Of a DNA stretch of 64,000 nucleotides, positions 3,123 through 63,801 are shown in pieces. The notes under the pieces were generated by a model. That model had not been told where the DNA came from, did no database searches, and worked only from the letters and a program-made list of their open reading frames with translations. Position numbers and translations under genes: made by a program. Origin of the DNA: Pseudoxanthomonas sp. X-1. Lineage in GTDB: Bacteria; Pseudomonadota; Gammaproteobacteria; Xanthomonadales; Xanthomonadaceae. The first letter of the stretch is position 1. Each line of letters begins with the position of its first letter. Location of the stretch: assembly GCF_020042665.1 (NCBI RefSeq), contig NZ_CP083376.1:3074001-3138000 (forward strand), in the 5' to 3' direction.

Positions 3123-3218
3123 GTCGCACGCCTGCCGGCATGGAAGTGAGACTCAGTGTGCGACTTGGACTGAGACTTCACCCAAGTTTTACTCGAAATC
3201 CTTTCTCACCCGCCCGGC

Positions 3219-3241: not shown

Positions 3242-3338
3242 CCGACGCAACAAGGCACAACCGGATCGAGACTTCCCGGTGAGCTAAGCCGAATCCCGTG
3301 TAACTCGCTCGTTTTGCTGGCATAAGGCGGCGGCGAGG

Positions 3339-3355: not shown

Positions 3356-3406
3356 GCAGTCCCCCGGCACGTGGGAATCCACGGCGCCCACGGTCCGCGA
3401 CATACC

Positions 3407-3431
3407 AGGGACACGGGGAGACAGTGTCCCT
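3407..3431 (+). promoter_or_regulatory. Hairpin in the pilA 5' leader
   Basis: Eight-base perfect arms AGGGACAC and GTGTCCCT enclose a nine-base loop. The hairpin lies downstream of the predicted transcription start and about 20 bases upstream of the GAAGGA ribosome-binding site. It may stabilise the abundant pilin message. There is no T-run and therefore no reason to call it a terminator. Confidence 0.35.
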
Positions 3432-3464
3432 AACCAGTTCCACCACCCTTCGAAGGAATTGCTC

Positions 3465-3869: not shown

Positions 3870-3901
3870 TATGAACTAAGCAAGTTCATAATGCTTCTAC
3901 A

Positions 3902-3935
3902 AAAGAGCGGAGGGTTCCTCCGCTCTTTCTTTTTT
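3902..3935 (+). terminator. Rho-independent terminator of pilA
   Basis: A perfect 12-base stem (AAAGAGCGGAGG / CCTCCGCTCTTT) with a three-base GTT loop is followed by CTTTTTTT. It lies 32 bases after the pilA stop and before the next gene. Confidence 0.93.
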
Positions 3936-3944
3936 GGACAACCG

Positions 3945-5690
3945 ATGCGAAGAATATTCAGTAGCAGGAATCTTGTTTTGTCGCTTCTAGCGGCCCTTGC
4001 TGCCCTTGCCTGCATTCCGAGAATCGATATCGGAATTTCCACGTTGGATGACGGCTTTTATGCATACGCGGCCGAGTCCATCTTGGATGGAAAACTCATT
4101 CACAGGGATTTCTTTTCGCAGTACGTTGGCTATCAGCACTATATTCATGCCCTTTTTTTTCGTCTGTATGGCGAAAATTATCTGACGCTGAGATATCCGT
4201 TAATTATCAGCCAGTTCATCTCTTGCCTCGCTGCGGCTCTTATATTCAGACAAAAGCCATTTATAGTTCAGTTGGCAGCCATCACAATCGCGTTGGGATT
4301 TGGGGTTCTTTTATTCAAAAACCCAAGTACAAGCTGGAGCTGTGTTGCTCTCGTACTGGTCATCACTGCATTACTTTCTTCGTCTAAGCCCGGCAATCCT
4401 TCGCGAAGTAAATTACTTGCATTGGGCTTGCTGCTAGGGCTGGTCTTCGGCATTAGGCATCCTACCGCTATTTTTCTGGGAATGGGCGTGCTGTGCCATC
4501 AAACAATATTAACGACGCGTAGCGAGGCTACATTTAAATCAAGTCGAGCAAGCAATGTCGTGCTTACTCTTGGGCTTCTTCTCGCGCTGACTTCACTTTT
4601 GGCTTACATGCTTAAAGCCAGCACTGTCGTCGATCTCGCGCCGTGGTTTGTAGCTCCAGTTTCATACATGGTTTATTCCTTAAGTAATGTCAAACGTACT
4701 GATTCACACCAAACCCTCGCCAATCTAACGTGGATTGGTGTTGGGTTCATCGCTGCGATCTCACCTTGGCTGATCTCCACCACGGCGCACAACAACTGGA
4801 AAGCGACATGGATTGATCTGAGCACAATGCCCACCGACTATTCGTCAATGTTGACCTTCACCACTGCCGATTTCGCCGGTAACATCTTGTTTATCGTCAG
4901 CCATCCCCCTAACGCACAAGCCATACTTGGCGCAGCCGTCTCAGCAGTAGGCCTACTTTTTCCTCTCCTGCTAGCGGCATCAATCTGGAGATTGCACAAA
5001 AATCCCCGCATCCAAGCTTGGGCACTCTCGCCAGTAAGCATAATGGCTGCCTTCCACACACTGGTGCTAGTCGCATTGGTCTCAAGCCTCTACTTGTCCT
5101 ACGTTCTTTGCCTCCAATTCTTATCAATCCTAGCGTTGGCCACCCAGATCAAGAATCATAGGGCGCGGAACGCTGCAATTAGCGCATTGATTGCAACTAG
5201 TGCCGGCTCATTTGTTTTTCTAACACCACAGTTTGAGCCAGCCGGAAACGTGAGCTACCTTGGCAGTATGCCGAGAACACTATCAAAATGCTGGCTACCA
5301 CGCTGCGATCTTCGGACTATCGCTGACAATAACATTATTTCCAAAGAAGCTTATGATGCTCTGGAAAAAATCAAACGCCCTGATTCCACGGTCACCGTAT
5401 TGCCATGGGGATATCACTATGAATTCTCCTACCCCTCTAATTATCGCCCCAAATACCCTGATATAAGACTCCCTCTTTATCGACATGTTCCTGCTGAAAT
5501 CGCCTTTCAGGACATTCTTAATGAAAGAGATCCTGTAATTTTGATTGAGAAGGTTGCCATGAGGGACGAATCAGTTTATCCGGAGTTCTTGAACTATTTT
5601 GCAATCTATTTTGCGAAAGCGTATGACGGGCCAATTTTCATGATTCTGGTCAAGAAAAATCGTTCCCAGCGGGCTAGTCACCAGTCTTAA
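3945..5690 (+). CDS. Polytopic membrane glycosyltransferase-like protein (GT-C type), pilin-linked
   Basis: 581 residues with many hydrophobic helices and an N-terminal DD motif in the first outer loop (STLDDGFYAYAAESILDG), as in GT-C enzymes of the ArnT/PMT type that use lipid-linked sugars. It is clearly more AT-rich than its neighbours and uses codons rare around it, suggesting transfer. It sits exactly between pilA and pilB; in other bacteria, pilin-adjacent genes of this kind (TfpO, TfpW) glycosylate the pilin. That role is inferred from position and topology, and no family was confirmed. The start is set at ATG 3945, because an earlier in-frame start at 3891 would put the pilA terminator inside the gene. 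A cell-wall or lipopolysaccharide sugar transferase is the alternative. Confidence 0.7.
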   Translation: MRRIFSSRNLVLSLLAALAALACIPRIDIGISTLDDGFYAYAAESILDGKLIHRDFFSQYVGYQHYIHALFFRLYGENYLTLRYPLIISQFISCLAAALIFRQKPFIVQLAAITIALGFGVLLFKNPSTSWSCVALVLVITALLSSSKPGNPSRSKLLALGLLLGLVFGIRHPTAIFLGMGVLCHQTILTTRSEATFKSSRASNVVLTLGLLLALTSLLAYMLKASTVVDLAPWFVAPVSYMVYSLSNVKRTDSHQTLANLTWIGVGFIAAISPWLISTTAHNNWKATWIDLSTMPTDYSSMLTFTTADFAGNILFIVSHPPNAQAILGAAVSAVGLLFPLLLAASIWRLHKNPRIQAWALSPVSIMAAFHTLVLVALVSSLYLSYVLCLQFLSILALATQIKNHRARNAAISALIATSAGSFVFLTPQFEPAGNVSYLGSMPRTLSKCWLPRCDLRTIADNNIISKEAYDALEKIKRPDSTVTVLPWGYHYEFSYPSNYRPKYPDIRLPLYRHVPAEIAFQDILNERDPVILIEKVAMRDESVYPEFLNYFAIYFAKAYDGPIFMILVKKNRSQRASHQS

Positions 5691-5754
5691 AAGTATCTGT
5701 CATCATTCAAGTTGCTTATTGCTGAAAGTATTCAAAATCTCCGGAGAGACGAAG

Positions 5755-7479
5755 ATGACTCTTGCTCCAGCTCCCAATCTTGTCGGTGTAACGGGCATCG
5801 CACGGCGTCTAGTGATGGATGGCGCGATGGATGAAGCAACCGCACGCTCGGTCATGACCGATGCATTCCAAGCGAAGATCCCCTTGTCACAATGGATCCA
5901 CGAGAAGAAGCTTGTCACTCCATCGCAATTAGCAGCGGCCAACGCCATCGAGTTCGGCATTCCCCTAATCGACGCGTCGTCATTTGACCCCAGCCAGAAC
6001 GCCTTGAAACTGGTAAGTGAAGAACTGTTGCAAAAGCACCAGGTTCTTCCGATGTTCAAACGCGGCAACAAGCTTTATGTAGGCGTTTCGGACCCTACAC
6101 GCATGGAGGGGCTGGACGAAATCAAGTTCCACACTAATTTGGTCGTGGAGCCTATCTTGGTAGCCGAGGACCAACTCCGCCGCACTTTAGAGACGTGGAC
6201 TAATGCTTCCGACTCACTCGCTGGCATGGGTGGCGACGAAGAGGATTTTGGCAGCCTAGACACTGCGGGCGGGGATGAAGAGAGCAGCGACACCGGGATC
6301 GACGCCAAAGGCGAGGACACGCCGGTCGTGAAGTTCGTGAACAAGATGTTGGTCGACGCGATTCGCCGCGGCGCCTCGGATATTCATTTCGAGCCTTACG
6401 AGACGGACTATCGCGTCCGTCTGCGCATCGACGGCATCCTCAAGACCGTCGCGCGCGCGCCACAGAAGCTTAACCAGCGCATCGCCGCGCGCCTGAAGGT
6501 CATGTCGCAGTTGGATATCGCTGAAAAGCGCGTACCGCAGGACGGCCGCATCAAACTCAATCTGTCCAAAACACGTCAGATCGACTTCCGCGTCAGCACC
6601 TTGCCGACGCTGTTCGGCGAAAAGGTCGTGCTGCGTATCCTGGATGGCAGCGCAGCCAAACTGGGCATCGACAAGCTGGGCTATGAGCCGGACCAACAAA
6701 AGCTGTTCCTCGACGCGATCCACAAGCCGTACGGCATGGTGCTGGTCACCGGTCCGACCGGTTCGGGCAAGACCGTATCGCTGTATACGGCCCTGGGGAT
6801 CCTCAACGACGACACCCGCAACATCTCCACGGCGGAGGACCCGGTCGAAATCCGCCTGCCCGGCGTCAACCAAGTGCAACAGAACAACAAGCGCGGAATG
6901 ACATTTGCCGCGGCGCTGCGCTCGTTCCTGCGTCAGGATCCGGATATCATCATGGTCGGCGAAATCCGCGACTTGGAGACGGCCGAGATCGCGGTCAAGG
7001 CCGCCCAGACCGGTCACATGGTGCTTTCTACCCTGCATACCAACGACGCGCCGCAGACCATCGCCCGTTTGATGAACATGGGCATCGCCCCGTACAACAT
7101 CACCTCGTCGGTGACGCTGGTAATAGCCCAGCGCCTGGCACGCCGCCTTTGCCCACGCTGCAAGCGCCCTCACGACATCCCGCCACATGCCCTGCTGTCG
7201 GAAGGCTTTACCCAAGCCGATCTTGACGCGGGCCTGACCCTTTACCAGGCGGTTGGCTGCGACGAGTGCACGGAAGGCTACAAGGGGCGCGTAGGTGTCT
7301 ACCAAGTCATGCCGATGACGGACGAGATTGCCGCGATCGTGCTGGAGGGCGGCGGCGCAATCCAGATCGCCGAGGCCGCCCAGCGTTCCGGCATCCGCGA
7401 CCTGCGCCAGTCGGCGCTCTGGAAGGCCAAGCAGGGATTGACCAGCCTGGCCGAGATCAATCGCGTCACCAAGGATTGA
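5755..7479 (+). CDS. pilB: PilB pilus extension ATPase
   Basis: Cytoplasmic hexameric ATPase that powers pilus assembly with the platform protein PilC. 574 residues. An N-terminal domain of about 150 residues (ARRLVMDGAMDEATA...) is followed by an acidic linker, then the secretion ATPase core with Walker A GPTGSGKT (about 333-340), the Asp/Walker B box IIMVGEIRDLETAE, a His box (GHMVLSTLHTNDA) and a tetracysteine zinc site (CPRC...CDEC). The start at 5755 follows GGAGAGACG; the earlier TTG at 5719 lacks a binding site. The N-terminal third has lower GC than the core, as if the AT-rich segment starting after pilA reaches into this gene. Confidence 0.95.
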   Translation: MTLAPAPNLVGVTGIARRLVMDGAMDEATARSVMTDAFQAKIPLSQWIHEKKLVTPSQLAAANAIEFGIPLIDASSFDPSQNALKLVSEELLQKHQVLPMFKRGNKLYVGVSDPTRMEGLDEIKFHTNLVVEPILVAEDQLRRTLETWTNASDSLAGMGGDEEDFGSLDTAGGDEESSDTGIDAKGEDTPVVKFVNKMLVDAIRRGASDIHFEPYETDYRVRLRIDGILKTVARAPQKLNQRIAARLKVMSQLDIAEKRVPQDGRIKLNLSKTRQIDFRVSTLPTLFGEKVVLRILDGSAAKLGIDKLGYEPDQQKLFLDAIHKPYGMVLVTGPTGSGKTVSLYTALGILNDDTRNISTAEDPVEIRLPGVNQVQQNNKRGMTFAAALRSFLRQDPDIIMVGEIRDLETAEIAVKAAQTGHMVLSTLHTNDAPQTIARLMNMGIAPYNITSSVTLVIAQRLARRLCPRCKRPHDIPPHALLSEGFTQADLDAGLTLYQAVGCDECTEGYKGRVGVYQVMPMTDEIAAIVLEGGGAIQIAEAAQRSGIRDLRQSALWKAKQGLTSLAEINRVTKD

Positions 7480-7678
7480 TACTCCTCCTACAGGGGCGCA
7501 CCGCAAGAGAGCGCGATGAGGCTTTTCAGGCAAAGCCCTCGCATCCACCCTCCGGTGCGCCCCTACCCGAGTGCTTTTCCAAGGGAATCTGACACTTGCA
7601 CGTTGTTTTGCCAGCGGAACCCGCTAACATGCGAGTCGAGCTACCCGGCATGGGGATGCCGGCAACTGGGGAACCAAG

Positions 7679-8941
7679 ATGGCCGTAAGCCGTTCAGCCG
7701 CCAAGAAATCCGTCCCGGTCGCGCGCGATACCAAGCAGCTGGCTGTCTTCGTCTGGGAAGGCACCGACAAGCGCGGCGTGAAGATGAAGGGCGAGCAGGA
7801 GGCTCGCAATGCCAATCTGCTCCGTGCGGAGCTGAGAAGTAAGGGCATCTCTCCCACTACGCTCAAGCCAAAGCCCAAGCCGCTCTTCGGGGGGGCCGGC
7901 AAGCCAATCAAGCCGTCCGACATCGCTTTTTTCAGCCGCCAGATGGCTACGATGATGAAATCCGGCGTGCCAATTGTGACGTCGTTGGAGATTATTGGCG
8001 GCGGACACAAGAATCCGCGCATGAAGAAGATGTTGGATTCGCTGCGCGCCGATATCGAAGGCGGCTCGTCTCTTTCCGAGGCGATCAGCAAGTTTCCTGT
8101 ACAGTTCGACGAGCTGTATCGCAATCTGGTGCGCGCCGGCGAGGGCGCGGGCGTTCTGGAAACCGTGCTGGACACGGTGGCGAGCTACAAGGAGAACATC
8201 GAGGCGTTAAAGGGCAAGATCAAGAAGGCGTTGTTTTATCCCGCGATGACCATCGCGGTCGCGGTTCTGGTGAGCGCAATTCTTTTGATCTTCGTTGTGC
8301 CCACCTTTGAAAAGGTCTTCGCCGATTTCGGCGCAGAACTGCCCGCCTTCACAAAGATGATCATCGCCGCCTCGCACATCGCCGTGGACTATTGGTGGCT
8401 GGCGATGATCGTAATCGTCGGCGGCGGCATCGCGGCAGTGATGGCCTTCAAGCGTTCACCCAAGTTCCAACACTTCATGGATCGAGTGGTGCTGAAACTA
8501 CCCGTTATCGGCGCCATCATGCATAACAGCGCGATCGCACGTTTTTCGCGGACGCTAGCGGTCACTTTCCGTGCTGGCGTTCCTCTGGTGGAAGCGCTCG
8601 ACACGATCGCTGGCGCAACAGGAAACACGGTGTACGAGCACGCGGTTCATCGGATCAAGGACGATGTTTCCGTGGGCTACCCGGTCAATATGGCCATGAA
8701 GCAAGTCAATCTCTTTCCTCACATGGTCATCCAGATGACCGCCATTGGCGAGGAGGCGGGAGCGCTCGACACCATGCTGTACAAGGTTGCCGAGTACTAC
8801 GAGCAAGAAGTCAACAACGCCGTGGATGCGCTCAGCAGCCTGATTGAGCCGATGATCATGGTGGTGTTGGGTATCCTTGTCGGCGGCATGGTCATCGGCA
8901 TGTACCTGCCCATCTTCAAGCTCGGCGCGGTGGTCGGCTGA
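7679..8941 (+). CDS. pilC: PilC inner-membrane platform protein
   Basis: Polytopic platform protein of the type IV pilus, homologous to GspF, which couples PilB/PilT ATPases to pilin movement. 420 residues, normal for the family. Two cytoplasmic T2SSF repeats are seen (FFSRQMATMMKSGVPIVTSLEII and FSRTLAVTFRAGVPLVEALDTIAG), each followed by membrane helices, with a final helix near the C terminus (PMIMVVLGILVGGMVIGMYLPIF). A 199-base gap separates it from pilB, long enough for its own promoter; pilD follows three bases after its stop. Confidence 0.95.
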   Translation: MAVSRSAAKKSVPVARDTKQLAVFVWEGTDKRGVKMKGEQEARNANLLRAELRSKGISPTTLKPKPKPLFGGAGKPIKPSDIAFFSRQMATMMKSGVPIVTSLEIIGGGHKNPRMKKMLDSLRADIEGGSSLSEAISKFPVQFDELYRNLVRAGEGAGVLETVLDTVASYKENIEALKGKIKKALFYPAMTIAVAVLVSAILLIFVVPTFEKVFADFGAELPAFTKMIIAASHIAVDYWWLAMIVIVGGGIAAVMAFKRSPKFQHFMDRVVLKLPVIGAIMHNSAIARFSRTLAVTFRAGVPLVEALDTIAGATGNTVYEHAVHRIKDDVSVGYPVNMAMKQVNLFPHMVIQMTAIGEEAGALDTMLYKVAEYYEQEVNNAVDALSSLIEPMIMVVLGILVGGMVIGMYLPIFKLGAVVG

Positions 8942-8944
8942 TCC

Positions 8945-9808
8945 ATGGCGTTTCTTGATCAACACCCCGAGCTGGGGTATCCGGTGGTGGGCGCGCTTGG
9001 CCTGATGGTCGGCAGCTTCCTCAATGTGGTGATCCTGCGGCTGCCGCGGCGGCTGGAGTGGCAGTGGCGGCGCGATGCCACCGAGATCCTGGAGCAGCCT
9101 GACCTGTACGATCCACCGCCGCCGGGGATCGTGGTCGAGCCTTCGCATTGCCCGCACTGCAAGCACAAGCTGGCGTGGTTCGAGAACATTCCGCTGTTCA
9201 GCTGGCTGGCGCTGAGGGGCAAGTGTCGTTACTGCCACGCGCCGATTTCCGTGCAGTATCCGGCGGTCGAGCTGCTGGTCGGGCTGCTGGCGGTCACCTG
9301 CGTATGGCGCTTCGGCTTCGGCTGGCAGGGATTCGGGGCGGCGGTGTTGAGCTGCTTCCTGGTCGCGCTGTCGGGGATCGACCTGCGCACACGGCTGCTG
9401 CCCGATACGTTGACCTTGCCGCTGATGTGGCTGGGGCTGGTCGCCAGCCTGGAACATCTCTACATCCAGCCCAAGCCCGCGCTGTTGGGCGCGATGGCGG
9501 GCTACGTGTCGCTGTGGTCGGTCTGGTGGCTGTTCAAGCAGCTCACCGGCAAGGAGGGCATGGGCCACGGCGACTTCAAGCTGCTGGCGGCGATCGGGGC
9601 CTGGGTCGGGTTGCGCGGGATCCTGCCGGTGATCCTGTTCTCGTCGCTGATTGGCGCGGTGGTGGGTGCGGCTTGGCTGGCGACCAAGGGCCGCGATCGT
9701 TCGACCCAGATCCCGTTCGGACCTTACCTGGCCGTGGCCGGGTGGGTGGTGTTCTTTTGGGGCGACCAGATCATCGACGGGTATCTGCGGTTGTCGGGGA
9801 TGCGATAG
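8945..9808 (+). CDS. pilD: PilD prepilin peptidase / N-methyltransferase
   Basis: Aspartic membrane protease that removes the leader of PilA and other prepilins and methylates the new N terminus. 287 residues. The N-terminal helix (GALGLMVGSFLNVVILRLPRR) is followed by a cytoplasmic domain with two CxxC pairs (CPHC and CRYC), a zinc site of classical PilD. The catalytic Asp residues are in GIDLRTRLLPD and in GMGHGDFKLLAAIG. It is co-transcribed with pilC (three-base gap). In Xanthomonas coaE usually follows pilD; here a strong terminator ends the operon instead. Confidence 0.95.
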   Translation: MAFLDQHPELGYPVVGALGLMVGSFLNVVILRLPRRLEWQWRRDATEILEQPDLYDPPPPGIVVEPSHCPHCKHKLAWFENIPLFSWLALRGKCRYCHAPISVQYPAVELLVGLLAVTCVWRFGFGWQGFGAAVLSCFLVALSGIDLRTRLLPDTLTLPLMWLGLVASLEHLYIQPKPALLGAMAGYVSLWSVWWLFKQLTGKEGMGHGDFKLLAAIGAWVGLRGILPVILFSSLIGAVVGAAWLATKGRDRSTQIPFGPYLAVAGWVVFFWGDQIIDGYLRLSGMR

Positions 9809-9834
9809 CGCGACTTGTCCACGTCTTCGATACG

Positions 9835-9862
9835 AAAACGCCGGCTTGACGCCGGCGTTTTT
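9835..9862 (+). terminator. Rho-independent terminator after pilD
   Basis: An 11-base perfect stem (AAAACGCCGGC / GCCGGCGTTTT) with a five-base loop ends in a T-run. It lies 26 bases after the pilD stop. The A-rich left arm could also give a T-run on the minus strand, so the hairpin may work in both directions. Apart from it, the stretch 9809-10055 shows nothing recognisable. Confidence 0.9.
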
Positions 9863-10055
9863 GTTTGGCGAAGGCTGATGTGCCAGTGACGATGTCAGGG
9901 GAGCCATTGGATCCCCACCTGCACGGCGATGATGCCCTGAAGGGAGCAGAGCGCGGCCCGCCTCTGACCACCAGTTTTTGCAGGACGCGGCAGCGAGAGC
10001 GCAGTTACCGGCTAACCCAGGAATGGCGATTGTCGCCGCAAGTCACCGCCATGCC

Positions 10056-11060
10056 CTACCCCTTCCACTTCCCTAGCGCCGCCAGCCCATTCTCCTTCGC
10101 GCGCTCCAGCACGATGGCCTGGGCGGCGGAGAAGTTGCCGGTTGGATCCTGGGCCCAGTGGGCCAGCGCGGCCTGTTGCATGGCGCGGCCGTAGGAGAAG
10201 CTCAAGGGCCACGGCAGGTTGCCAAGGCGGTTCATCGCGTCCAGATGCGCGGTGGCGTCCTCGTCGGACTGGCCGCCGGAGAGGAAGACGATGCCGGGCA
10301 GGATCGCCGGCACGGTGCTCTTCAGGCACATCACGGTCGAGTCGGCGACTTCCTCGACGTCGGCCCGCTCCTCGCAGTCCTGTCCCGGCACGACCATCGA
10401 GGCCTTGAGCAGCGTGCCCTCCAGCAGCACGCCCTGATCGTGCAGCGCACCGAACAGCGAGCGCAGCATCGCCTCGGTGACCTCGTAGCAGACCTGAATG
10501 TCGTGGTCGCCGTCCATCAGCACTTCCGGCTCGACGATGGCGACCAGGCCCTGCTCCTGGCACAGCGCCGCGTAGCGGGCCAGGGCGTGGGCGTTGACCT
10601 CGATGCAGGTGCCGGAGGGGATGTCCTCGCCGATGGTGATCACCGCGCGCCACTTGGCGAAGCGCGCGCCCAGGGCGTAGTAGGCCTTGAGCCGGTCGCG
10701 CAGGCCGTCTAGGCCCTCGGTCACCAGTTCACCCGGGCAGCCGGCCAGGGGCGAGGTGCCCTTGTCGACCTTGATGCCGGGGATGAGGCCGTGGCTGGCC
10801 ATGTACTTGGGGAACGGGGTGCCGTCCTCGGTGCTCTGGCGCAGGGTCTCCTCGAACAGGATCGCGCCGGCGATGTGATCGCTCAGCCGGGGCGTGGTCA
10901 GCAGCAGCTCGCGATAGCGGCGGCGGCGCGCCTCGGTGTTCTCGATGCCGACCGCGGCGAAACGCTTGCCGATGGTGGCCGTGGATTCGTCGATGGCGAG
11001 GATGCCCTTGCCGGGGGCGACCAGCGCCTGCGCGGTTTCGGCGAGCGATTCGATGCTCAT
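10056..11060 (-). CDS. fba: Class I fructose-bisphosphate aldolase
   Basis: Cleaves fructose 1,6-bisphosphate to dihydroxyacetone phosphate and glyceraldehyde 3-phosphate through a Schiff base rather than a metal. 334 residues, close to eukaryote-like class I aldolases. Typical stretches are GKGILAIDESTATIGKRF at the N terminus, IPGIKVDKG (Schiff-base region helper Lys), IVEPEVLMDGDHD, and LLEGTLLKASMVVPG, which carries the Schiff-base Lys. The ATG at 11060 follows AGGAGCTCCA. It is the last gene of the minus-strand glycolytic cluster, 70 bases after pyk. Many bacteria have the class II enzyme instead, so the type is informative. Confidence 0.93.
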   Translation of the reverse strand: MSIESLAETAQALVAPGKGILAIDESTATIGKRFAAVGIENTEARRRRYRELLLTTPRLSDHIAGAILFEETLRQSTEDGTPFPKYMASHGLIPGIKVDKGTSPLAGCPGELVTEGLDGLRDRLKAYYALGARFAKWRAVITIGEDIPSGTCIEVNAHALARYAALCQEQGLVAIVEPEVLMDGDHDIQVCYEVTEAMLRSLFGALHDQGVLLEGTLLKASMVVPGQDCEERADVEEVADSTVMCLKSTVPAILPGIVFLSGGQSDEDATAHLDAMNRLGNLPWPLSFSYGRAMQQAALAHWAQDPTGNFSAAQAIVLERAKENGLAALGKWKG

Positions 11061-11130
11061 TGGAGCTCCTGGGGAACGCACTGCGAGGGGGCCGCAGTAT
11101 AGCGGCGCCCCCTCGCCGCCCAGGGGCGGC

Positions 11131-12600
11131 TTACAGCTCGCCCAGGCCGCTGGCGCGGCCGTCCTCGCCCACTTCCAGCAGGCGCAGGGTATTGGTGGCG
11201 CCGTGGGTCTCCATGTGCTCGCCACTGGTGAACACCACGCGGTCGCCCGGCCCCAGGGCGCCGGCCTTGACCAGCATCTGGATGCTCGCGCGGGCGGCCT
11301 CGCGCGGCACCATGCCGCGGCTGTCGAAGGCGATGGGATGGACGCCGCGCATCAGCGCCATGCGCCGCCGCGCGCCGCCGTGACGCGAGAAGGCGTACAC
11401 CGGCACGGTGGAACGGAACCGCGACAGGAAGCCCGCGGTACCGCCGGATTCACTCAGGGCCACCACGCCGCCCAGCTTGATGTGCTCGGACAGGAACATC
11501 GTGGCCATCGCGATGGCGTGGTCGGCGCGCTGCAGGTTGCGCTGGGCCGCCTCGAAATCGGTATCCATCGAGAACGAGCGTTCGGCGCCCACGCAGATGC
11601 GCGCCATCGCCTCCACCGCGCGCACCGGATAGGTGCCGGCGGCGGTCTCGGCCGAGAGCATCACCGCGTCGGTGCCGTCGATGACCGCATTGGCCACGTC
11701 CATGACCTCCGCGCGCGTGGGCAGCGGGCTCTCCACCATCGACTGCAGCATCTGGGTCGCGGTGATGACGACCTTGTTCTGTTCGATCGACTCGCGAATG
11801 ATCTGCTTCTGCAGCCCCGGCAGCTCGGCGTCGCCGATCTCCACGCCCAGATCGCCGCGCGCGACCATCACCACGTCGCTGGCGCCGACGATCTCCTTCA
11901 GGTTCTCGATGGCCTCGGTGCGCTCGATCTTGGACACCAGGAAGGCGTCGCTGCCGTGCTTGCGCGCCAGGCTCCGCGCTTCCTCCATGTCGGCCGCGTT
12001 GCGGCAGAAGGAGACGGCGATGAAGTCCACGCCGATGTCGGCGACGATGGCGATCAGCTCGCGGTCGCGGTCGCTCAGCGCGCCCAGCGACAGGCCGCCG
12101 CCCTGCTTGTTCAGGCCCTTGCGGTCGGACAGCACGCCGTCGTTGAGCACCTGGGTGACGATGCGCTCGCCTTCCACGGCGGTGACGCGCAGCTGCATCA
12201 TGCCGTCGTCGAGCAGCAGCACATCGCCGGGCGCCACGTCGCCTGGCAGGCCGAGGTAGCTCACGCCGACCTGGGTCTCGTCGCCGGCCGGCACGCCCTC
12301 GCGCGCGACCAGGTCGAAGCGCGCGCCGGTCTTCAGCTGCACCTTGCCCTGCGCGAAGCGCTCGATGCGGATCTTCGGACCCGGCAGATCGGCCAGGATG
12401 CCCACCTCCAGGCCCAGCTTGCTGGCGGCGCTGCGCACGGCTTCGGCGCGGTCGCGCTGGGCCGACGGGTCGCCATGGGAAAAGTTGAGACGCACCACGT
12501 TCACGCCGGCGCGCAGCAGATCCTCCAGCACGCCGGGCGGATCGGTGGCAGGGCCGAGCGTGGCCAGGATCTTGGTGCGGCGGGCGTTGGATTGGCTCAT
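11131..12600 (-). CDS. pyk: Pyruvate kinase
   Basis: Converts phosphoenolpyruvate and ADP to pyruvate and ATP. 489 residues. The N terminus MSQSNARRTKILATLGPATD contains the conserved TKI.ATLGPA strand. Further marks are VNVVRLNFSHGD, the catalytic Lys in FLVSKIERTEAIENL, the metal-binding MVARGDLGVEIG, and the effector-loop region MLSAETAAGTYPV. An upstream in-frame extension to 12726 lacks homology and a ribosome-binding site. It sits between the HAD phosphatase and the aldolase on the same strand. Confidence 0.95.
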   Translation of the reverse strand: MSQSNARRTKILATLGPATDPPGVLEDLLRAGVNVVRLNFSHGDPSAQRDRAEAVRSAASKLGLEVGILADLPGPKIRIERFAQGKVQLKTGARFDLVAREGVPAGDETQVGVSYLGLPGDVAPGDVLLLDDGMMQLRVTAVEGERIVTQVLNDGVLSDRKGLNKQGGGLSLGALSDRDRELIAIVADIGVDFIAVSFCRNAADMEEARSLARKHGSDAFLVSKIERTEAIENLKEIVGASDVVMVARGDLGVEIGDAELPGLQKQIIRESIEQNKVVITATQMLQSMVESPLPTRAEVMDVANAVIDGTDAVMLSAETAAGTYPVRAVEAMARICVGAERSFSMDTDFEAAQRNLQRADHAIAMATMFLSEHIKLGGVVALSESGGTAGFLSRFRSTVPVYAFSRHGGARRRMALMRGVHPIAFDSRGMVPREAARASIQMLVKAGALGPGDRVVFTSGEHMETHGATNTLRLLEVGEDGRASGLGEL

Positions 12601-57437: not shown

Positions 57438-57455
57438 GCCACCCCTGCAACAACG

Positions 57456-57486
57456 AAAAGGCCGCCTAAAGGGCGGCCTTTTCGCG
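57456..57486 (+). terminator. Rho-independent terminator
   Basis: Eleven-base perfect stem AAAAGGCCGCC / GGCGGCCTTTT with a five-base loop, 18 bases after the stop of the exported protein. The direct repeat flanking the transposon begins one base after the T-run. Confidence 0.85.
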
Positions 57487-57493
57487 TTGGGAC
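57483..57493. repeat. Direct repeat flanking the transposon, left copy
   Basis: CGCGTTGGGAC, identical to 62904-62914 and abutting the left inverted repeat. It behaves as a target-site duplication. If the ends are taken as the full 22-base inverted repeats, nine bases (57485-57493) lie outside on both sides. Confidence 0.8.
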
Positions 57494-57515
57494 CGCCATG
57501 ATGGCGCAAACGCCC
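57494..57515. repeat. Left terminal inverted repeat of the transposon
   Basis: Begins CGCCATGATGGCGCAA and ends ACGCCC. It matches the complement of 62884-62905 at 21 of 22 bases. Confidence 0.88.
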
Positions 57516-57551
57516 AATGATGATCTTGGCCCGTATCGATAGCCTTATCGC

Positions 57552-58079
57552 ATGCGGACCAAGACTCCCTCCTCCCTGAAATGGCTTGTTGACCGTCGAT
57601 CGCGAACCCTCGGCAGCAAGAAAGCGCAGTTACGCAAGGCCAAGGCCTCAATCGATGAGGCCGATCGCCTGAGACAGGTAGCGGCGAGCCTTCAAGCGGA
57701 TCTGGACAGCATCGACAGAGTGCTATCGATGCATGAGGTTCCGTTGGACCCATCAATGATCGCGCCCAGGAAGACGCCGCAGGGCAGATTGCTGCCCTAC
57801 GGCAAAGTGACACGGGGGATCTATGCGTGCCTACGAAAAGCTGAAGGCCGATGGTGCTCCACGACTGAGGTCTTGGTTTTTGTCGCACAAAGACAGGGGC
57901 TCTCAGTTTGCTCCGAGACCTACGCCCATGCCCGACTGGTCGTGCGTAGGAGGCTGAGAGCCTTGGCATACGCCGGCAAGATTCGCCGGCGGCCAGAGCC
58001 AAAACTCCATCTGGAAGCCTATTGGGCGCTAAACCCCAAAACCAGCCTAACGGCGCAGGTCCCGCCACCTGTTCAATAG
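57552..58079 (+). CDS. Transposon accessory protein, coiled coil plus winged-helix-like
   Basis: 175 residues, not a family I can name. The N-terminal half is a charged helix likely to form a coiled coil (SKKAQLRKAKASIDEADRLRQVAASLQADLDSIDRVL). The C-terminal half (LPYGKVTRGIYACLRKAEGRWCSTTEVLVFVAQRQGL ... ARLVVRRRLRALAYAGKIRRR) reads like a DNA-binding winged helix. First gene inside the left inverted repeat; it converges on the transposase gene with a 33-base tail overlap. A role in regulating transposition or cargo is inferred from position. Confidence 0.7.
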   Translation: MRTKTPSSLKWLVDRRSRTLGSKKAQLRKAKASIDEADRLRQVAASLQADLDSIDRVLSMHEVPLDPSMIAPRKTPQGRLLPYGKVTRGIYACLRKAEGRWCSTTEVLVFVAQRQGLSVCSETYAHARLVVRRRLRALAYAGKIRRRPEPKLHLEAYWALNPKTSLTAQVPPPVQ

Positions 58080-59147
58080 GATTTCCGACCCTCGGTGGTG
58101 ACCCTGGTAGTACCCGCGCCACCACCAAGAAAAGCCCGACGTCATGGCCCGGCGGAGAATGTCCTTTAGGAGCATGCTGAGCGGGATACGCCGACTGTCT
58201 TCACGCCATGCCATCTCGTTGGCCTTGTCGGCCAGGTAGGTGGGCGTCATCCGATGGGCGACGCCCAACTCGTGACGCCGCTGTCGAGTAAAGAAGGATT
58301 CCGCCTGATTTTCATTCACTCCATCAGACCTGACAAACATTCGGCCGTGATTGACTGGTTCGTGGTCGTGCGTCATGCCGAGGGGCGTATAGGCGGGATT
58401 CTCGTCGGTCCAGATAATGGCGTCTGGATCGACATACCGATCAACGAGTTCCCGCACGTCCGCTTCGTTTTCTGACAAGGCGACCGCCGTAATGGTTCGT
58501 GTCGCGCCCCTGCGGTGCGGTCCTTGTTGCCTGAGCACCATGACCACCCGCTTGTTCCTTCGCTTATCCCAATTCTGCTGGGTCATGCCTGCGGCATGCC
58601 ATGGCTTCCGGCCTGGCATGGGGCGCCCCGTCAACCTAGCCGCAATCATCCTGTCGTTTCGGCGTCCTCGATGATTGGGCTTGCGAGGTTTGCCTCCGAA
58701 ATAGCCGCCGTCGATCTCGACAATGCCCTTCAGCGGCGTTTCGTCCTGCGTCCGAAGCAAGGCCTCGCGCAGCTTGCCCAAGGTGACGTGCGCGGCCTTG
58801 GGGGAGTAGTCCCCTGAGCGACTGAGCTGCAGTCCTGCAAGCCCTTTGGGCGAAGTTACGTAGTGGAAGAGTGCCGCCAGGATGTGCTTGAGCGACTTCT
58901 TGTGGTTGGCGAACGCGGTACGCGAGGTAACTGTGAAATCGGTCCTGCAGGCCTTGCATCGCCATTGCTTCCGCCGCGCGCGCCAGTAATGGACGTCCCA
59001 CGCCCCGCAAGCAGGACAGCCTTGATGGGTTAGCGAATCCCATCGGGCGAGGACATACATTTGGTGGACCTCATTATCTGACATCGCGTAGATCGCGCCG
59101 AGCGTGAGATCGCGATAAGCGGCGCTTCGTAGGTAGTGTTGGCTCAT
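58047..59147 (-). CDS. IS1595-family (ISXO2-like) transposase
   Basis: 366 residues. N-terminal zinc finger (CPAC ... WRCKACRTDFTVTSRTAF) and a DDE-type catalytic core with EIDGGYFGGKPRKPNHRGRR, WTDENPAYTPL and NENQAESFFTRQRRHELGVAH. MSQHYLRSAAYRDLTL is the likely N terminus (ATG at 59147); an in-frame extension to 59207 is not supported. It looks complete and undamaged, so the element may still be mobile. Confidence 0.9.
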   Translation of the reverse strand: MSQHYLRSAAYRDLTLGAIYAMSDNEVHQMYVLARWDSLTHQGCPACGAWDVHYWRARRKQWRCKACRTDFTVTSRTAFANHKKSLKHILAALFHYVTSPKGLAGLQLSRSGDYSPKAAHVTLGKLREALLRTQDETPLKGIVEIDGGYFGGKPRKPNHRGRRNDRMIAARLTGRPMPGRKPWHAAGMTQQNWDKRRNKRVVMVLRQQGPHRRGATRTITAVALSENEADVRELVDRYVDPDAIIWTDENPAYTPLGMTHDHEPVNHGRMFVRSDGVNENQAESFFTRQRRHELGVAHRMTPTYLADKANEMAWREDSRRIPLSMLLKDILRRAMTSGFSWWWRGYYQGHHRGSEILLNRWRDLRR

Positions 59148-59221
59148 AGTTGGTGTCCGAGAGCCGTTCACGGGACGGCCGGGGCCCTCCGCGAGAACGG
59201 AAATCAAAAGACCGGGACAAG

Positions 59222-59271
59222 CCCCTCCTGCTCACGCCCGCAGGGCATGTTGACTTTGGTCAAAGGAGGGG
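59222..59271 (+). promoter_or_regulatory. Stem-loop that buries a ribosome-binding site
   Basis: CCCCTCCT (59222-59229) pairs perfectly with AGGAGGGG (59264-59271), which is the ribosome-binding site six bases before the ATG at 59278. The loop carries a smaller hairpin, TTGAC TTTG GTCAA. It could hold back translation of the small ORF until opened. Confidence 0.4.
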
Positions 59272-59277
59272 TGCACT

Positions 59278-59547
59278 ATGGCAAAACAGTCTTCAGCTGC
59301 TTGCCACAAGAAGCCCAGATCCCTGCCAGGGGAGCTGGGCTTTGTGCTTTCTGCCCAGATGAAATTGCGGTCACTCAGGTTTGGGCTGATCGATAGGCGT
59401 AGTCCTTCGTCGCGTCGAGAGGTGGGGCGCGTCTGCAGGCATTGGCCGGAGGCAAGCAAGAGACGACAGTGGTCGCGTCCGGAATGTACGGTCCGACGCC
59501 GCCCGAGTGTCTCAGTCCGCGGAAGGAAATGGAAGCTAAGTTATTGA
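59278..59547 (+). CDS. Possible small basic protein inside the transposon
   Basis: 89 codons, very basic (FGLIDRRSPSSRREVGRVCRHW). The support is a near-ideal AGGAGGGG six bases upstream. Against it are poor protein-like composition and a terminator-like hairpin inside the frame (59311-59342, AAGCCCAG / CTGGGCTT). The family is not recognised. The remainder of the gap 59148-59602 shows only short direct repeats. Confidence 0.3.
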   Translation: MAKQSSAACHKKPRSLPGELGFVLSAQMKLRSLRFGLIDRRSPSSRREVGRVCRHWPEASKRRQWSRPECTVRRRPSVSVRGRKWKLSY

Positions 59548-59548
59548 T

Positions 59549-59581
59549 TTGTATGTGCAAAATGTGTGCATTGTATGTGCA
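59549..59581. repeat. Pair of direct repeats TTGTATGTGCA
   Basis: Two exact copies (59549-59559 and 59571-59581), 22 bases apart, in an AT-rich patch just beyond the stop of the 134-residue protein gene. A related TGTGTGCA lies between them. Purpose unknown. Confidence 0.6.
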
Positions 59582-59602
59582 TTGCACGTACACGAGCTTA
59601 GA

Positions 59603-60007
59603 TCAGTGGTCTCGCACTTCTACGTCCCGATTTGTGAAAATCGTTTCGAGCGTCGCAGGGCTCATCTGGGTTCGTGTCGAACGGGACACCTGCTCCAAGG
59701 CAATCTCCATTCTGTAATCGTGGAAGAACCGAACTAGATCATCCTGTGAGACCGTTGCGGTCATCGAATTGCTCTTACCCACCAAGATGTGGACGATCAA
59801 GGCTAGCGGCCCTGTAAGCGCATGAAGAACGGCCGGATCGCGGGACCCAAGTTCGCAGTCTAAGACCTCAAGATCACGCGCAATTGAGTTAAGCCAGAAG
59901 TCCGAGAGTTGGCTAGGAAGCGCTGCATCAGCCGATTTGGATAAGATTTCTTCCTGCAACCGCTCCAGGTCCGTAGCAGGAAGCTCAGTGGTCATGCCCG
60001 CGGCCAT
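59603..60007 (-). CDS. Small unknown protein of the transposon cargo
   Basis: 134 residues (130 if the ATG at 59995 is used), mostly helical and acidic (LPATDLERLQEEILSKSADAALPSQLSDFWLNSI), with FFHDYRMEIALEQVSRSTRTQMSPATLETIF near the end. No family recognised. It lies downstream of the methyltransferase on the same strand, 195 bases away, with a hairpin in between. Confidence 0.6.
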   Translation of the reverse strand: MAAGMTTELPATDLERLQEEILSKSADAALPSQLSDFWLNSIARDLEVLDCELGSRDPAVLHALTGPLALIVHILVGKSNSMTATVSQDDLVRFFHDYRMEIALEQVSRSTRTQMSPATLETIFTNRDVEVRDH

Positions 60008-60081
60008 CGATAAGGGATTTTAGACGGACGTGACGCTCGGGATCACGCCGACGACAGCTGATTCAATAGTCTCTAGCTTTT

Positions 60082-60106
60082 CATGGGGTCTTTTCGAGAC
60101 CCCATG
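60082..60106. other. Perfect hairpin between methyltransferase and 134-residue gene
   Basis: Ten-base arms CATGGGGTCT / AGACCCCATG with a five-base loop. On the transcribed (minus) strand no T-run follows, so it may be a processing or attenuation structure or a protein-binding dyad. Confidence 0.5.
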
Positions 60107-60202
60107 CGACGGGACTCGCCTCCAAGATGATCGTATAAAGCCGCGTCAAGCACTGGACCTTCCGAGCCGAGAGGTGCCACCGACGGTCTACAGATCTTAC
60201 GT

Positions 60203-61108
60203 TCAAGCAGTTGCAAACTTTGAACCAAATTCTTCGACAGCCCAGGGACGCCGACAGCGCGATCTCACCCCATCCATGTCTGGAGGCGTAAGCTTGTCAC
60301 TGAAGAAAACCAATTCATTCCCGACGCGCGCGTGCTCTTGCGCGCTATAGTGAAGTGCCAGATCGGTCGAGCGGAACGGCTTGTAGATTTCGCGAATAAG
60401 GTCGTGTGCGTCGTAAGACACTATCCAATGGCAAGGAAGCTTCGCAACCAAGCGGGCGAGCCGGCGATGATCGTCCTCTTCGTAAGCATTTAGATACAGT
60501 CCAGGACCTTTATCTACATATGGTGGGTCTAGGTACATCAAAGAACTTTCAGTCGCACGATCGCAATAGGAAGAGACCAGGTCACATGCATCTAAATTGG
60601 TGACCGCGATCCGACTCCGCAATTTTCCAATGCGTTCGATACGCCCAATCAAGTCGACCTTGTTCATTCGGGCATCTAAAGACCACTTGCCCGTTTGCTC
60701 TTTACCGCCGATCACCCCGCCTTTGAGGATGCCAGATCGGTTCGTTCTATTTAGGAAGAAAGTGGCGAATCCCAAGTCATGCAGGCTCGAAACATCAGAA
60801 GACCTGTAAATGGCTTTGCAGTCATACCAAGTCTCCATTGAGCACGGAGTTTCCTCAATTCGTGCGCACAGTCGGTCCGTATGATCTACAGCTTCTCGCC
60901 AGAAAGCGAACACTGCGCGGTCTAGATCATTGAGGTGTATCGCCGATACAACGCCTGCTCGCAGCAGCTCAATGGCCAGCCCCGCTCCGCCGCAGAACGG
61001 CTCAACATATGTACAGTCATACAAGTTGTTCTGCGCGATTAGGCGCTGGAAGTACTTGTATAACTTGGCTTTTCCGCCCGGATAGCGGAGAGGGGTGACG
61101 TTAGGCAT
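60203..61108 (-). CDS. D12-class (Dam-like) DNA adenine methyltransferase
   Basis: Adds a methyl group to adenine N6. 301 residues. N-terminal SAM-binding TPLRYPGGKAKLYKYF, YVEPFCGGAGLAIELLRAG, and catalytic motif IV LMYLDPPYVDKGPGLY. A middle target-recognition region includes FFLNRTNRSGILKGGVIGG. The order of motifs fits the alpha (Dam/DpnM) group. No restriction enzyme is recognised beside it. It starts 25 bases after the ParB-like gene on the same strand, so the two probably form an operon. Recognition site unknown. Confidence 0.9.
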   Translation of the reverse strand: MPNVTPLRYPGGKAKLYKYFQRLIAQNNLYDCTYVEPFCGGAGLAIELLRAGVVSAIHLNDLDRAVFAFWREAVDHTDRLCARIEETPCSMETWYDCKAIYRSSDVSSLHDLGFATFFLNRTNRSGILKGGVIGGKEQTGKWSLDARMNKVDLIGRIERIGKLRSRIAVTNLDACDLVSSYCDRATESSLMYLDPPYVDKGPGLYLNAYEEDDHRRLARLVAKLPCHWIVSYDAHDLIREIYKPFRSTDLALHYSAQEHARVGNELVFFSDKLTPPDMDGVRSRCRRPWAVEEFGSKFATA

Positions 61109-61133
61109 CGTGCCAGTTCGTGGAAGTATGCAC

Positions 61134-62612
61134 CTATTGTGCAGGAGCCTCGGGGTGTTGGCCACCGCCTCGACTGACTCGACGCCAAGCCAGTCGTAGC
61201 GCCGGTTCGATGGAGTCCCAAGTCGCTCTAACATGGTCTGGCGATAGGCTGACGTAGACATTGTGAGTCGCGTCACTCAATCCTTCGTATACACCCGCGT
61301 CTTTCAAGAGTGCGCGACCGATCGCAACTCTATCTGCAGGCTCGTCACTAATGCGAGGCTGCGACATCAGGTCCTGCGCCATAGAGCTGATGTTGTTCGT
61401 GAAATTTCCGGTAATGCGAAGCTCAAATCGACTCAGGTAAGTATGTGCTGTCAATTCTAGGAGCGAGCGCACCAAAAACGCACATGCATACGGTGCCTCG
61501 GAGACCTTAACCTTCCCCATCAACTCGTCATGGATTCGTCGGCACTTCTGTTGGTTGACCGGAAGTGGGCTTCGACGATCAATTAGATAGTGACGAACTC
61601 TTGGCGCCCGCGGGCGGGGTACTGCAGTTCCCCCCGGCAACGGCGTCCCCGTCGGCGGCGGCGGTTGGGGCCTCGGCATTATATTGGGGGTAGGCGTGCC
61701 TCCGGGTGATGCAGGCGAAGCGGCTGTGTTCGGCTCGTCATTGATCGAATCGGGATCGTCGTCAACGGCGTCTGCCTCAGTGGTGCCTTCAAATGCCCTG
61801 TAGATGGGCTCCAAATACCGAGCGACATCTTCGGTTAACTGGATGGTGCGTGAGGTAATTTCGCCAGAGGCGGTATCGTTTGCGATCCTAGCCCAGCCAA
61901 AGAGCGCGCGCGATGGGTTGATGCCCTCGTCATACGCATCCGTAGCTATGCGACCGCCGAACCTAGTGGTGAACTCCGTGCTTCCGGCAGCACGCTCGAA
62001 AGTCGAGATTGAAAATTCACTGGAATCGAGTTGGCCTAAAGTTTGCGAGTTGAGCAGCCCATCAACACGAAGGCGTGTTAGCAGCTTAAACGTTCCAGTG
62101 TCCTCGAACCTGGCTTGTTGCATCGGCGACCAAGCGCTTCGGCCAGCCCCCTCCAGCGCGCCCGTGTGCTTTAGGCGGATGAACGGGCGAGCTTCCTCTC
62201 GTGAATCAGCAAGAGCGACGTCAATTCTTGTTGAAATTTCGTCGATCGCATACTCGTTTCGGAGCGCATGCATCCGACGATTTAATGAAGCCGGCATGCC
62301 TATATCATCACGATCAAGCAGAGTGGGCTCGGTAAGTAGCTTGAGAGCTGTTACTCGCCTATTACCATCCAGCACGATGTAGCGCCCTGGAGCCTGCGGG
62401 TTAGCGATCACAATTAGCCGCTCGCTAGGATCTATGCTGGCGAGTTCGCAGATACTCTTGGCTAAGACATACACCTTTTCGCCAATGCGCTCGCCGATTC
62501 GCTCGGACTGCAGAATTTCCGAAATGGCTTGGGTCTGATGTTGCGCTGGATCGATCCTCGGGTTCCGAAGATCTAGGTCCAGTGTTGCGAGGTCAACAGT
62601 CAAGCTCTGCAT
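61134..62612 (-). CDS. ParB-like protein with Pro-rich linker and helical C-terminal domain
   Basis: 492 residues. The N-terminal part has a ParB/sulfiredoxin-type core: LDLRNPRIDP and YIVLDGNRRVTALKLL, the DGxRR box that binds nucleotide in ParB-like proteins. The middle (about 130-270) is unfamiliar. A Pro-rich linker (about 300-345) leads to a helical domain ending GLSDATHNVYVSLSPDHVRATWDSIEPALRLAW, in the manner of HEPN-type C-terminal domains (a tentative comparison). Encoded directly upstream of the DNA methyltransferase. It could guide or sense methylated or foreign DNA; its function is unknown. Confidence 0.75.
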   Translation of the reverse strand: MQSLTVDLATLDLDLRNPRIDPAQHQTQAISEILQSERIGERIGEKVYVLAKSICELASIDPSERLIVIANPQAPGRYIVLDGNRRVTALKLLTEPTLLDRDDIGMPASLNRRMHALRNEYAIDEISTRIDVALADSREEARPFIRLKHTGALEGAGRSAWSPMQQARFEDTGTFKLLTRLRVDGLLNSQTLGQLDSSEFSISTFERAAGSTEFTTRFGGRIATDAYDEGINPSRALFGWARIANDTASGEITSRTIQLTEDVARYLEPIYRAFEGTTEADAVDDDPDSINDEPNTAASPASPGGTPTPNIMPRPQPPPPTGTPLPGGTAVPRPRAPRVRHYLIDRRSPLPVNQQKCRRIHDELMGKVKVSEAPYACAFLVRSLLELTAHTYLSRFELRITGNFTNNISSMAQDLMSQPRISDEPADRVAIGRALLKDAGVYEGLSDATHNVYVSLSPDHVRATWDSIEPALRLAWRRVSRGGGQHPEAPAQ

Positions 62613-62883
62613 ATGGGCCCCTGGTCCGTCAGTATGTGCCCGCGCTGCAGGCCCCCACAGGTTAACCGATGGGAGTCACCGCTAAAGACGCTGGGAAAGC
62701 GGCTCAGCGCCGTTCGATGGCGGGCAGCATGGCGACCTCGGCGGAGAAAAGCGCGCTTGGGCAATCCAGCCTTGCTCGGAGCCTGGCAAGACCGGTGGGC
62801 ACTCGGATGTTGCTGGTGGAGGGGCGTCGACCTTAAGCGTTTGGACAGCGCGGCTAATTGCGATCGCCAATCCCACAGACTAG
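62613..62883. other. Right-end non-coding part of the transposon
   Basis: 271 bases between the ParB-like gene and the right inverted repeat. GC rises toward chromosomal values. It should hold the promoter of the cargo operon. Short open frames here are not convincing. Confidence 0.5.
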
Positions 62884-62905
62884 GGGCGTTTGCGCCATCA
62901 GGGCG
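62884..62905. repeat. Right terminal inverted repeat of the transposon
   Basis: Complement begins CGCCCTGATGGCGCAA. It matches the left repeat at 57494-57515 at 21 of 22 bases. Confidence 0.88.
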
Positions 62906-62914
62906 CGTTGGGAC
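62904..62914. repeat. Direct repeat flanking the transposon, right copy
   Basis: CGCGTTGGGAC, identical to 57483-57493. It overlaps the inverted repeat by two bases. Confidence 0.8.
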
Positions 62915-62946: not shown

Positions 62947-63801
62947 CTAGAAGCGGCCCTCCTGGAAATCGACGAAGGCCTGCATCAGCTCCTGGCGGGT
63001 GTTCATGACGAACGGGCCGTGGCGCACCACCGGCTCGCGCAGCGGGCGGCCGGCGACCAGGATCACGCGCGCGCCCTGCGCGCCGGCCTGCAGGACCAGC
63101 GACTCCCCGCCGCCGAGCACCGCCAGCGTGCGGCTGGGCAGTTCGCGTGCGCCGTCGCCCTCGCCCACCGTGACCTCGCCTTCGTAGGCATAGGCGAAGG
63201 CGTTGTGGCCTGCGGGCAGGGCGTAGGTCCAGCGCGCGCCGGGCGCGAGCGCGATGTCCAGGTACAGCGGGTCGGTCGCCGGCTGCACGATCGGCCCGGT
63301 CACTTCGCCGACCGCACCGGCGATCACCTTGACCTCCACGCCGGCCGACGGGGTGGCCACCGGGATGCGCTCGGGGGCGAACTCCTGGTACCTGGGCGCG
63401 GTCATCTTGTCCTTGGCCGGCAGGTTGACCCACAGCTGGAAGCCGCGCATGCGGCCGGATTCCTGCTCGGGCATCTCCGAATGCACCAGGCCGCGCCCGG
63501 CGGTCATCCACTGCACGCTGCCCGGGGTGAGCAGGCCTTCGTTGCCATGGTTGTCGCGGTGGCGCATGCGCCCGTCGAGCATGTAGGTCACCGTCTCGAA
63601 GCCGCGGTGCGGGTGCTCGGGGAAGCCGGCCAGGTAGTCCTCGGCCTTGTCGGTGCCGAACTCGTCCAGCATCAGGAACGGATCCAGGTCCGGCAGTTCG
63701 GGCGTGCCGATCACGCGGGTCAGCTTGACCCCGGCGCCGTCGGACGCGGGCATGCCGCGCACGGTACGGACGATGCGGGCCGCATGGGCGGTGTCGTTCA
63801 T
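62947..63801 (-). CDS. Pirin-family protein 2 (YhhW-like)
   Basis: 284 residues, bicupin. FPEHPHRGFETVTYMLDGRMRHRDNHGNEG carries the metal-binding His residues, followed by VQWMTAGRGLVHSEMPEQ, the closing Glu region. YhhW-type pirins have quercetinase activity; the role here is unknown. It differs clearly from the pirin at 55838. The stop lies 32 bases beyond the transposon repeat, so the insertion spared it. The last 199 bases of the window (63802-64000) hold its promoter region and nothing else I recognise. Confidence 0.9.
   Translation of the reverse strand: MNDTAHAARIVRTVRGMPASDGAGVKLTRVIGTPELPDLDPFLMLDEFGTDKAEDYLAGFPEHPHRGFETVTYMLDGRMRHRDNHGNEGLLTPGSVQWMTAGRGLVHSEMPEQESGRMRGFQLWVNLPAKDKMTAPRYQEFAPERIPVATPSAGVEVKVIAGAVGEVTGPIVQPATDPLYLDIALAPGARWTYALPAGHNAFAYAYEGEVTVGEGDGARELPSRTLAVLGGGESLVLQAGAQGARVILVAGRPLREPVVRHGPFVMNTRQELMQAFVDFQEGRF

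Follow-up and report, generated by a model that had tools for sequence, protein, structure and literature searches.

In the 64,000-nucleotide stretch of Pseudoxanthomonas sp. X-1 DNA analysed here (the window; positions 3074001-3138000 of a genome of 4.52 Mb in a single contig), the element at 57494-62905 (5,412 bp) is a cargo-carrying transposon of the IS1595 family that bears the PD-Lambda-5 gene pair, and one of its genes, orfA, probably encodes an exchangeable target selector that directs the transposase to targets differing from one orfA lineage to another. Among 31 elements of this kind at recurrent insertion sites, the element with the nearest orfA lies at the same site in 31 of 31 cases, whereas the one with the nearest transposase does so in 14. 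The window's element is flanked on the left by a hairpin, whose stem has 13 bases, and on the right by a pirin gene (62947-63801); the features that bear on target choice are as follows.

57454-57484, no strand: terminator-like hairpin at the insertion point, a perfect 13-nt inverted repeat, also present at the empty site of the sister genome G004
57485-57493, no strand: left copy of the target duplication, CGTTGGGAC, from direct-repeat and arm analysis with a shuffle test
57494-57515, + strand: left terminal inverted repeat, on the orfA side, from the arm match; its first 15 bases are the same in L032 (X. phaseoli) and L093 (G378)
57552-58079, + strand: orfA, 175 aa, the proposed target selector, convergent with the transposase gene; proposed from its homologues, a predicted model and fold, and covariation with target
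58047-59147, − strand: IS1595-family DDE transposase, 366 aa (NF033547, PF12762, PF12760); its 3′ end overlaps that of orfA
62884-62905, − strand: right terminal inverted repeat, from the arm match
62906-62914, no strand: right copy of the target duplication, CGTTGGGAC, from the same analysis and shuffle test as the left copy

Relatives were gathered through a transposase scan of genome contigs, which gave 28 loci, and through further searches of 199 relatives, 395 genomes of the family and 297, 296 and 190 genomes from the orders of G842, G841 and G843, respectively. With an exact duplication and matching arms as the bounding criterion, 56 elements were obtained, the window's included (1.9-8.9 kb, median 4.0 kb). 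In three bounding rounds, 10 of 30, 8 of 10 and 14 of 47 loci yielded no ends, owing to short contigs, decay or larger elements, and these loci were left out of the 56. Every one of the 56 bounded elements contains an orfA homologue, and the orfA profile finds a single match in 622,156 bases of flanking DNA. When joined empty sites were compared, 31 of the 56 elements fell at seven recurrent sites.

Glycosyltransferase site 1: eight elements (L047, L050, L051, L161, L168, L170, L176, L182)
Glycosyltransferase site 2: five elements (L046, L173, L175, L179, L184)
comM site A: six elements (L035, L036, L041, L183, L191, L193)
comM site B: six elements (L037-L040, L167, L172)
dprA site: two elements (L044, L052)
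Site directly behind tRNA-Gln(ctg): two elements (L034, L200)
Site in one unnamed gene: two elements

All seven sites hold insertions in both orientations, and the elements at each are therefore separate insertions. The names of the target genes rest on Pfam matches in one or two members of each: comM on Mg_chelatase, dprA on DNA_processg_A, and the glycosyltransferase on Glyco_trans_2_3 and Glyco_tranf_2_3. Natural-transformation genes are interrupted by 14 relatives, at the two comM sites and the one dprA site, and one kind of glycosyltransferase gene is interrupted by 13 relatives at two fixed sites. DprA has an established role in natural transformation, and comM site B lies just behind the Walker B motif. 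ComM is likewise described as acting in natural transformation (PMC4774983, PMC10293859), and the TnsF of Tn6022 and Tsy targets comM at its Walker B motif (PMC10293859). L201, which has no close orfA neighbour, is inserted in comM at yet another place, the third in this gene. With E=9e-12 against a strict limit of 1e-12, the tRNA-Gln pair narrowly failed to qualify and was retained by hand because both elements adjoin the 3′ side of tRNA-Gln(ctg). L185, linked to the comM site B group by one weak alignment, was removed, its site being unrelated. Two side observations concern the glycosyltransferase sites: the target of L046, the one examined on that side, has an MshEN domain too, and L047 holds two element-like units side by side (3069-6590 and 6598-11230) with overlapping duplications, GATTATCC and GGATTATC.

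The target follows orfA rather than the transposase by several measures. The area under the curve (AUC) for prediction of a shared target is 0.973 for orfA identity and 0.600 for transposase identity, and target changes number 6 (the minimum) on the orfA tree and 12 on the transposase tree, against about 20 on both with shuffled labels. In a set of 32 elements that still held L185, the nearest orfA was at the same site in 31 of 32 cases and the nearest transposase in 15 of 32; the removal of L185 erased the sole orfA misassignment of that set, and hence both counts are given. In the 32-element set, orfA still predicted the target with transposase identity held constant (0 of 5000 shuffles reached the observed value), and the transposase failed to do so with orfA identity held constant (4994 of 5000 shuffles); thinning the set to 16 elements gave 13 of 14 for orfA and 1 of 14 for the transposase. 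L044 and L052, in dprA, and L050 and L051, in the glycosyltransferase gene, have transposases 86-91% identical and OrfA proteins 20-23% identical (transposase identity is 89% for L050 and L044, both from Methylocystis). For the tRNA-Gln pair, L034 and L200, the transposases are 47% and the OrfA proteins 50% identical. Some 190 bases separate the two comM sites and some 415 the two glycosyltransferase sites. Different orfA groups occupy the paired sites within one gene, so that recognition seems to be of the local DNA and not of the gene as such. Furthermore, among loci readable at the right end only whose labelled orfA neighbour was at least 44% identical, three of four lay at the predicted site (L187, L181 and L058; not L194).

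Cargo-carrying IS1595 elements are a known kind, the transporter insertion sequences (IS) (PMC3129680, PMC11891212), and the element might be an ordinary one in which the transposase picks targets by itself, orfA being a passenger or a regulator, for example of transposase expression. A winged helix, the fold predicted for part of OrfA, would suit a repressor, and passenger transcription regulators are described for the ISNha5 transporter IS (PMC11891212); those regulators could be orfA, and the portion of that report available to us mentions no role for them in target choice. We regard this explanation as improbable, since target changes are twice as many on the transposase tree as on the orfA tree, transposases sharing as much as 91% identity have different target genes, and the transposase adds no prediction once orfA is known. 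Recombination offers another source of covariation: one end has orfA as its closest gene in most elements (in 50 of 56 it comes after the transposase gene, on the opposite strand), and host flank and orfA might recombine jointly. This is highly improbable, since at the four larger sites pairs in opposite orientation are about as similar in orfA as pairs in the same orientation (median identities, same/opposite, of 39/40, 70/70, 54/48 and 46/61%); one fixed flank cannot carry orfA when the medians are similar across orientations.

Several observations weigh against OrfA as the selector. Singly seen sites account for 25 of the 56 elements, and the nearest-neighbour test applies only to sites that recur. 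When the window's element, L093 and L096 are taken as one terminator class, 19 of 62 orfA pairs at least 44% identical lie at different sites, and 27 of 38 elements with an orfA neighbour at that level share its site (14 of 53 for transposase neighbours at least 60% identical). L190, L178, L169, L164 and L194 have an orfA near a recurrent group and are inserted elsewhere. Such exceptions may be off-targets of the selector, may reflect target change outrunning the measure, or may point to an incomplete model. In this comparison of relatives, and with these exceptions, specificity follows the proposed selector gene and not the transposase.

OrfA is predicted to consist of a long helix or coiled-coil arm and a winged-helix domain, and the best 50 fold matches listed for the model include generic winged helices. 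No TniQ-type selector is among these 50, which does not exclude kinship. Scans of orfA against PADLOC, NCBIfam and Pfam gave nothing above cut-off, and 17 members sought for a Pfam relative gave no consistent match, the best being 2 of 17, to an unrelated family. The winged helix is not the only part that predicts the target: the AUC is 0.961 for this domain, 0.933 for the coil and 0.939 for the linker. In the mechanism we propose, the transposase would recognise the ends and cut and join DNA, and OrfA would bind target DNA through its winged helix, its coil contacting the transposase or forming a dimer. OrfA would in this way bring the transposase to the target, with insertion beside the bound site, and exchange of orfA would give a family member a new target. 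The window's orfA lineage would tend to direct insertion to the base of terminator hairpins downstream of genes, at which nothing is disrupted. From these comparisons we infer that OrfA binds both target and transposase and that the transposase alone would lack this specificity.

To our knowledge, exchangeable protein selectors that give site-specific insertion are a hallmark of Tn7-like elements. The best explanation is that OrfA would act like the TnsD or TnsF of Tn7, yet it is no member of that system. Like OrfA in the proposed role, TnsD/TniQ and TnsF of Tn7-like elements are modular selectors carried on transposons, and TnsF targets comM (PMC10293859, PMC2918618); unlike those elements, which combine a TnsB-type transposase with the AAA+ protein TnsC and a TniQ-family or TnsF selector, the one described here has a single IS1595-type transposase, and OrfA is a small coiled-coil/winged-helix protein. 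No Pfam match to TnsC, TniQ or a tyrosine recombinase was found among the scanned proteins of the window's element.

The boundaries of the element are well defined. Its inverted arms match at 21 of 22 positions, and a 9-base repeat abutting arms that match at 15 or more of 22 positions occurs as the sole pair in the 8 kb around the element and in 0 of 20 mononucleotide shuffles; the initial annotation, which had described a complete transposon of 5.4 kb with both ends, is borne out in these respects. It had also given an 11-base direct repeat, CGCGTTGGGAC, which is indeed present as an exact repeat at 57483-57493 and 62904-62914. As a target duplication, the 11-base form was rejected: 62904-62905 are the last two bases of the right inverted repeat, and the duplication with symmetrical ends therefore comprises 9 bases. 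Both neighbours and the hairpin occur without the insertion in the sister genome G004, where the joined flanks align across the site without a gap (identity 96% on the right and 90% on the left; the 11 bases of the repeat are themselves poorly conserved there), as expected from the earlier prediction that the empty site would restore a continuous sequence. The G+C content is 56.8% in the element and 69.2% in the remainder of the window. A genome search for further copies found the element once only, and a recent burst was accordingly rejected. Three points were absent from the initial annotation: the conservation of orfA, the possibility that the hairpin next to the element is its target, and the way target and orfA covary among relatives.

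The transposase reading frame is intact and scores 101.4 bits against NF033547 (cut-off 75). The DDE domain PF12762 (DDE_Tnp_IS1595), at 114.7 bits, and the N-terminal zinc ribbon PF12760, at 28.8 bits against a cut-off of 25.4, are likewise above threshold, in keeping with the single intact IS1595-type transposase and the cargo-carrying IS1595 member, with passenger genes inside its bounds, that had been described from the letters of the window. Elements of the ISNha5 subgroup have ends of the CGGnnTT type and a size of 3.5-7.9 kb, and by its ends and size the window's element probably belongs to this subgroup. Within the IS1595 family, the zinc ribbon is missing in the IS1016 group alone, and the target duplication is usually 8 bases (PMC8101967). 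The duplication has 9 bases in the window and 8 in the relatives, which were mostly sought with exactly 8; a search for duplications of 7, 9 or 10 bases in 14 unbounded loci found none. The element shares with IS1595 transporter IS the DDE domain, zinc ribbon, inverted ends, short duplication and passengers (PMC3129680, PMC11891212, PMC10667641, PMC8101967), and differs in its PD-Lambda-5 cargo, 9-base duplication, conserved orfA covarying with target and recurrent gene-level targets.

At the window's own site, the arms of the hairpin (57454-57466 and 57472-57484) contain A and T runs within the stem, and the hairpin touches the duplication. It is not listed by a consensus terminator scan, which requires a T run after the stem. 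Among 17 gammaproteobacterial and betaproteobacterial loci, six (L100, L101, L102, L202, L204, L205) were dropped, their right end being unreadable; of the remaining 11, four could be read at both ends and seven at the right end alone. A terminator-like hairpin lies at most 5 bases from the duplication in 6 of these 11 elements (5 of 10 besides the window's).

Hairpin test passed: window, L093, L055, L099, L203, L206

We somewhat favour a terminator preference of the window's orfA lineage, a claim held below that of a general selector role for OrfA. Alternatively, the hairpin neighbourhood may reflect chance or a tolerated intergenic insertion, the terminator being no target, which is the less probable account of the window's site but a serious one. 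Intergenic ends are tolerated, and the test is passed by 55 of 4,620 positions no more than 100 bases downstream of long genes (12 of 597 with a first, wider criterion) and by 53 of 20,000 random host positions (0.27%); set against this, the hairpin edge in the six passing elements is 0-5 bases from the duplication, and 0 of 52 other bounded elements pass. The terminator preference is itself weakened by the five of 11 elements that fail the test: L096 (whose hairpin has a run of just three T), L032, L095, L097 and L098. L032 has an orfA 86% identical to that of L093 and is nevertheless inserted in an AraC-type regulator gene, with no terminator; L206 passes the test though its orfA is not close to the window's. 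Furthermore, the first criterion gave 5 of 11 and missed the window's hairpin because the T run sits inside the stem; the criterion was then loosened as to the place of the T run, after the data had been seen, and tightened as to distance, and the background was recomputed.

Three cargo genes lie upstream of the transposase gene on the same strand.

59603-60007, − strand: 134-aa gene with four other homologues, unnamed
60203-61108, − strand: D12-class adenine DNA methyltransferase, PD-Lambda-5_B (PADLOC E=4.8e-113; PF02086)
61134-62612, − strand: 492-aa protein, PD-Lambda-5_A (PADLOC E=3.5e-118, residues 5-479)

The PD-Lambda-5_A and PD-Lambda-5_B genes lie 25 bases apart on the same strand, and the models are matched over nearly their full length; what had been called an uncharacterised methylation cargo thus corresponds to a named system. 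PD-Lambda-5 was discovered by functional selection as an anti-phage system (Vassallo et al. 2022, PMC9519451), and because both large genes match its PADLOC models, the cargo is a candidate anti-phage system that may protect its host from phage. The N-terminus of PD-Lambda-5_A is weakly ParB-like (parB_part, 14.8 bits, below cut-off), and the 134-aa gene matched no significant family in the PADLOC, NCBIfam and Pfam scans. As in other PD-Lambda-5 systems, the A and B genes are adjacent; prophages, integrative and conjugative or mobilisable elements and genomic islands are among the vehicles reported, and the vehicle here differs in being a small DDE transposon. PD-Lambda-5_A relatives occur in 4 of 199 relatives and 2 of 369 genomes of the class (the window's own genome counts in both) and in two plasmid records. 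No orfA match was found in the PD-Lambda-5_A loci L081-L084, in stretches merely 3.3-3.6 kb long.

Cargo scans covered 20 chosen frames of 111 with at least 150 aa, the window's two included, and some gave no match; no cargo frequency is claimed because the scanned genes were hand-chosen. Within the window's family, L093 (G378) carries an RHS protein next to a DMP19 protein and L096 (G256) a Zeta_toxin/XVIPCD protein, a 139-aa neighbour and a DUF6988 protein, both toxin-immunity-like sets. Other cargo includes a methyltransferase-Mrr protein (L047), a dCTPase (L168), a C5 methyltransferase (L172), type III restriction-modification proteins (L186), a BstA-like KilA-N protein (L161) and SLFN_AlbA_2 (L200), and L032 has IS-type transposase frames, judged by eye, in the cargo position.

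IS1595 transporter IS and PD-Lambda-5 are already known kinds, and the new part is orfA. Among the matches listed in the open-access literature, there was neither an IS1595 target selector nor defence cargo, PD-Lambda-5 included, on IS1595. We consider it fairly likely that a DDE family outside Tn7 has its own exchangeable selector, in which a single small protein with coiled-coil and winged-helix parts would, in the absence of an AAA+ partner, re-address an IS1595-type transposase to comM (two sites), dprA, a glycosyltransferase gene (two sites), the 3′ end of tRNA-Gln or transcription terminators. If so, a compact transposon relying on two proteins would offer a simpler model for the study of target choice and might yield tools for protein-guided insertion. 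Such a system would also explain mechanistically the presence of small transposons in competence genes, where a conflict has been argued from genomics (PMC4774983). Some elements may silence host DNA uptake while defending the host, because several carry anti-phage or toxin-immunity-like cargo. The window's element also extends the range of vehicles known for defence genes, PD-Lambda-5 among them, by a small DDE transposon.

Four minor observations concern further genes. An 89-aa frame inside the window's element (59278-59547, + strand) has only a weak 24-residue match, in L032, and is probably no gene. A second, weak PD-Lambda-5_A relative lies elsewhere in the same genome (G000:C1:539912-540196, L084; E=3.5e-4). 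A family of about 300 aa, one member of which was scanned and gave no Pfam match, occurs at the left end of alphaproteobacterial elements and has 18 members (L035, L038, L039, L041, L048, L050, L051, L161, L176, L183, L188-L193, L195, L196). By profile search, a DUF6471 gene is present in 16 of the 21 elements bounded first.

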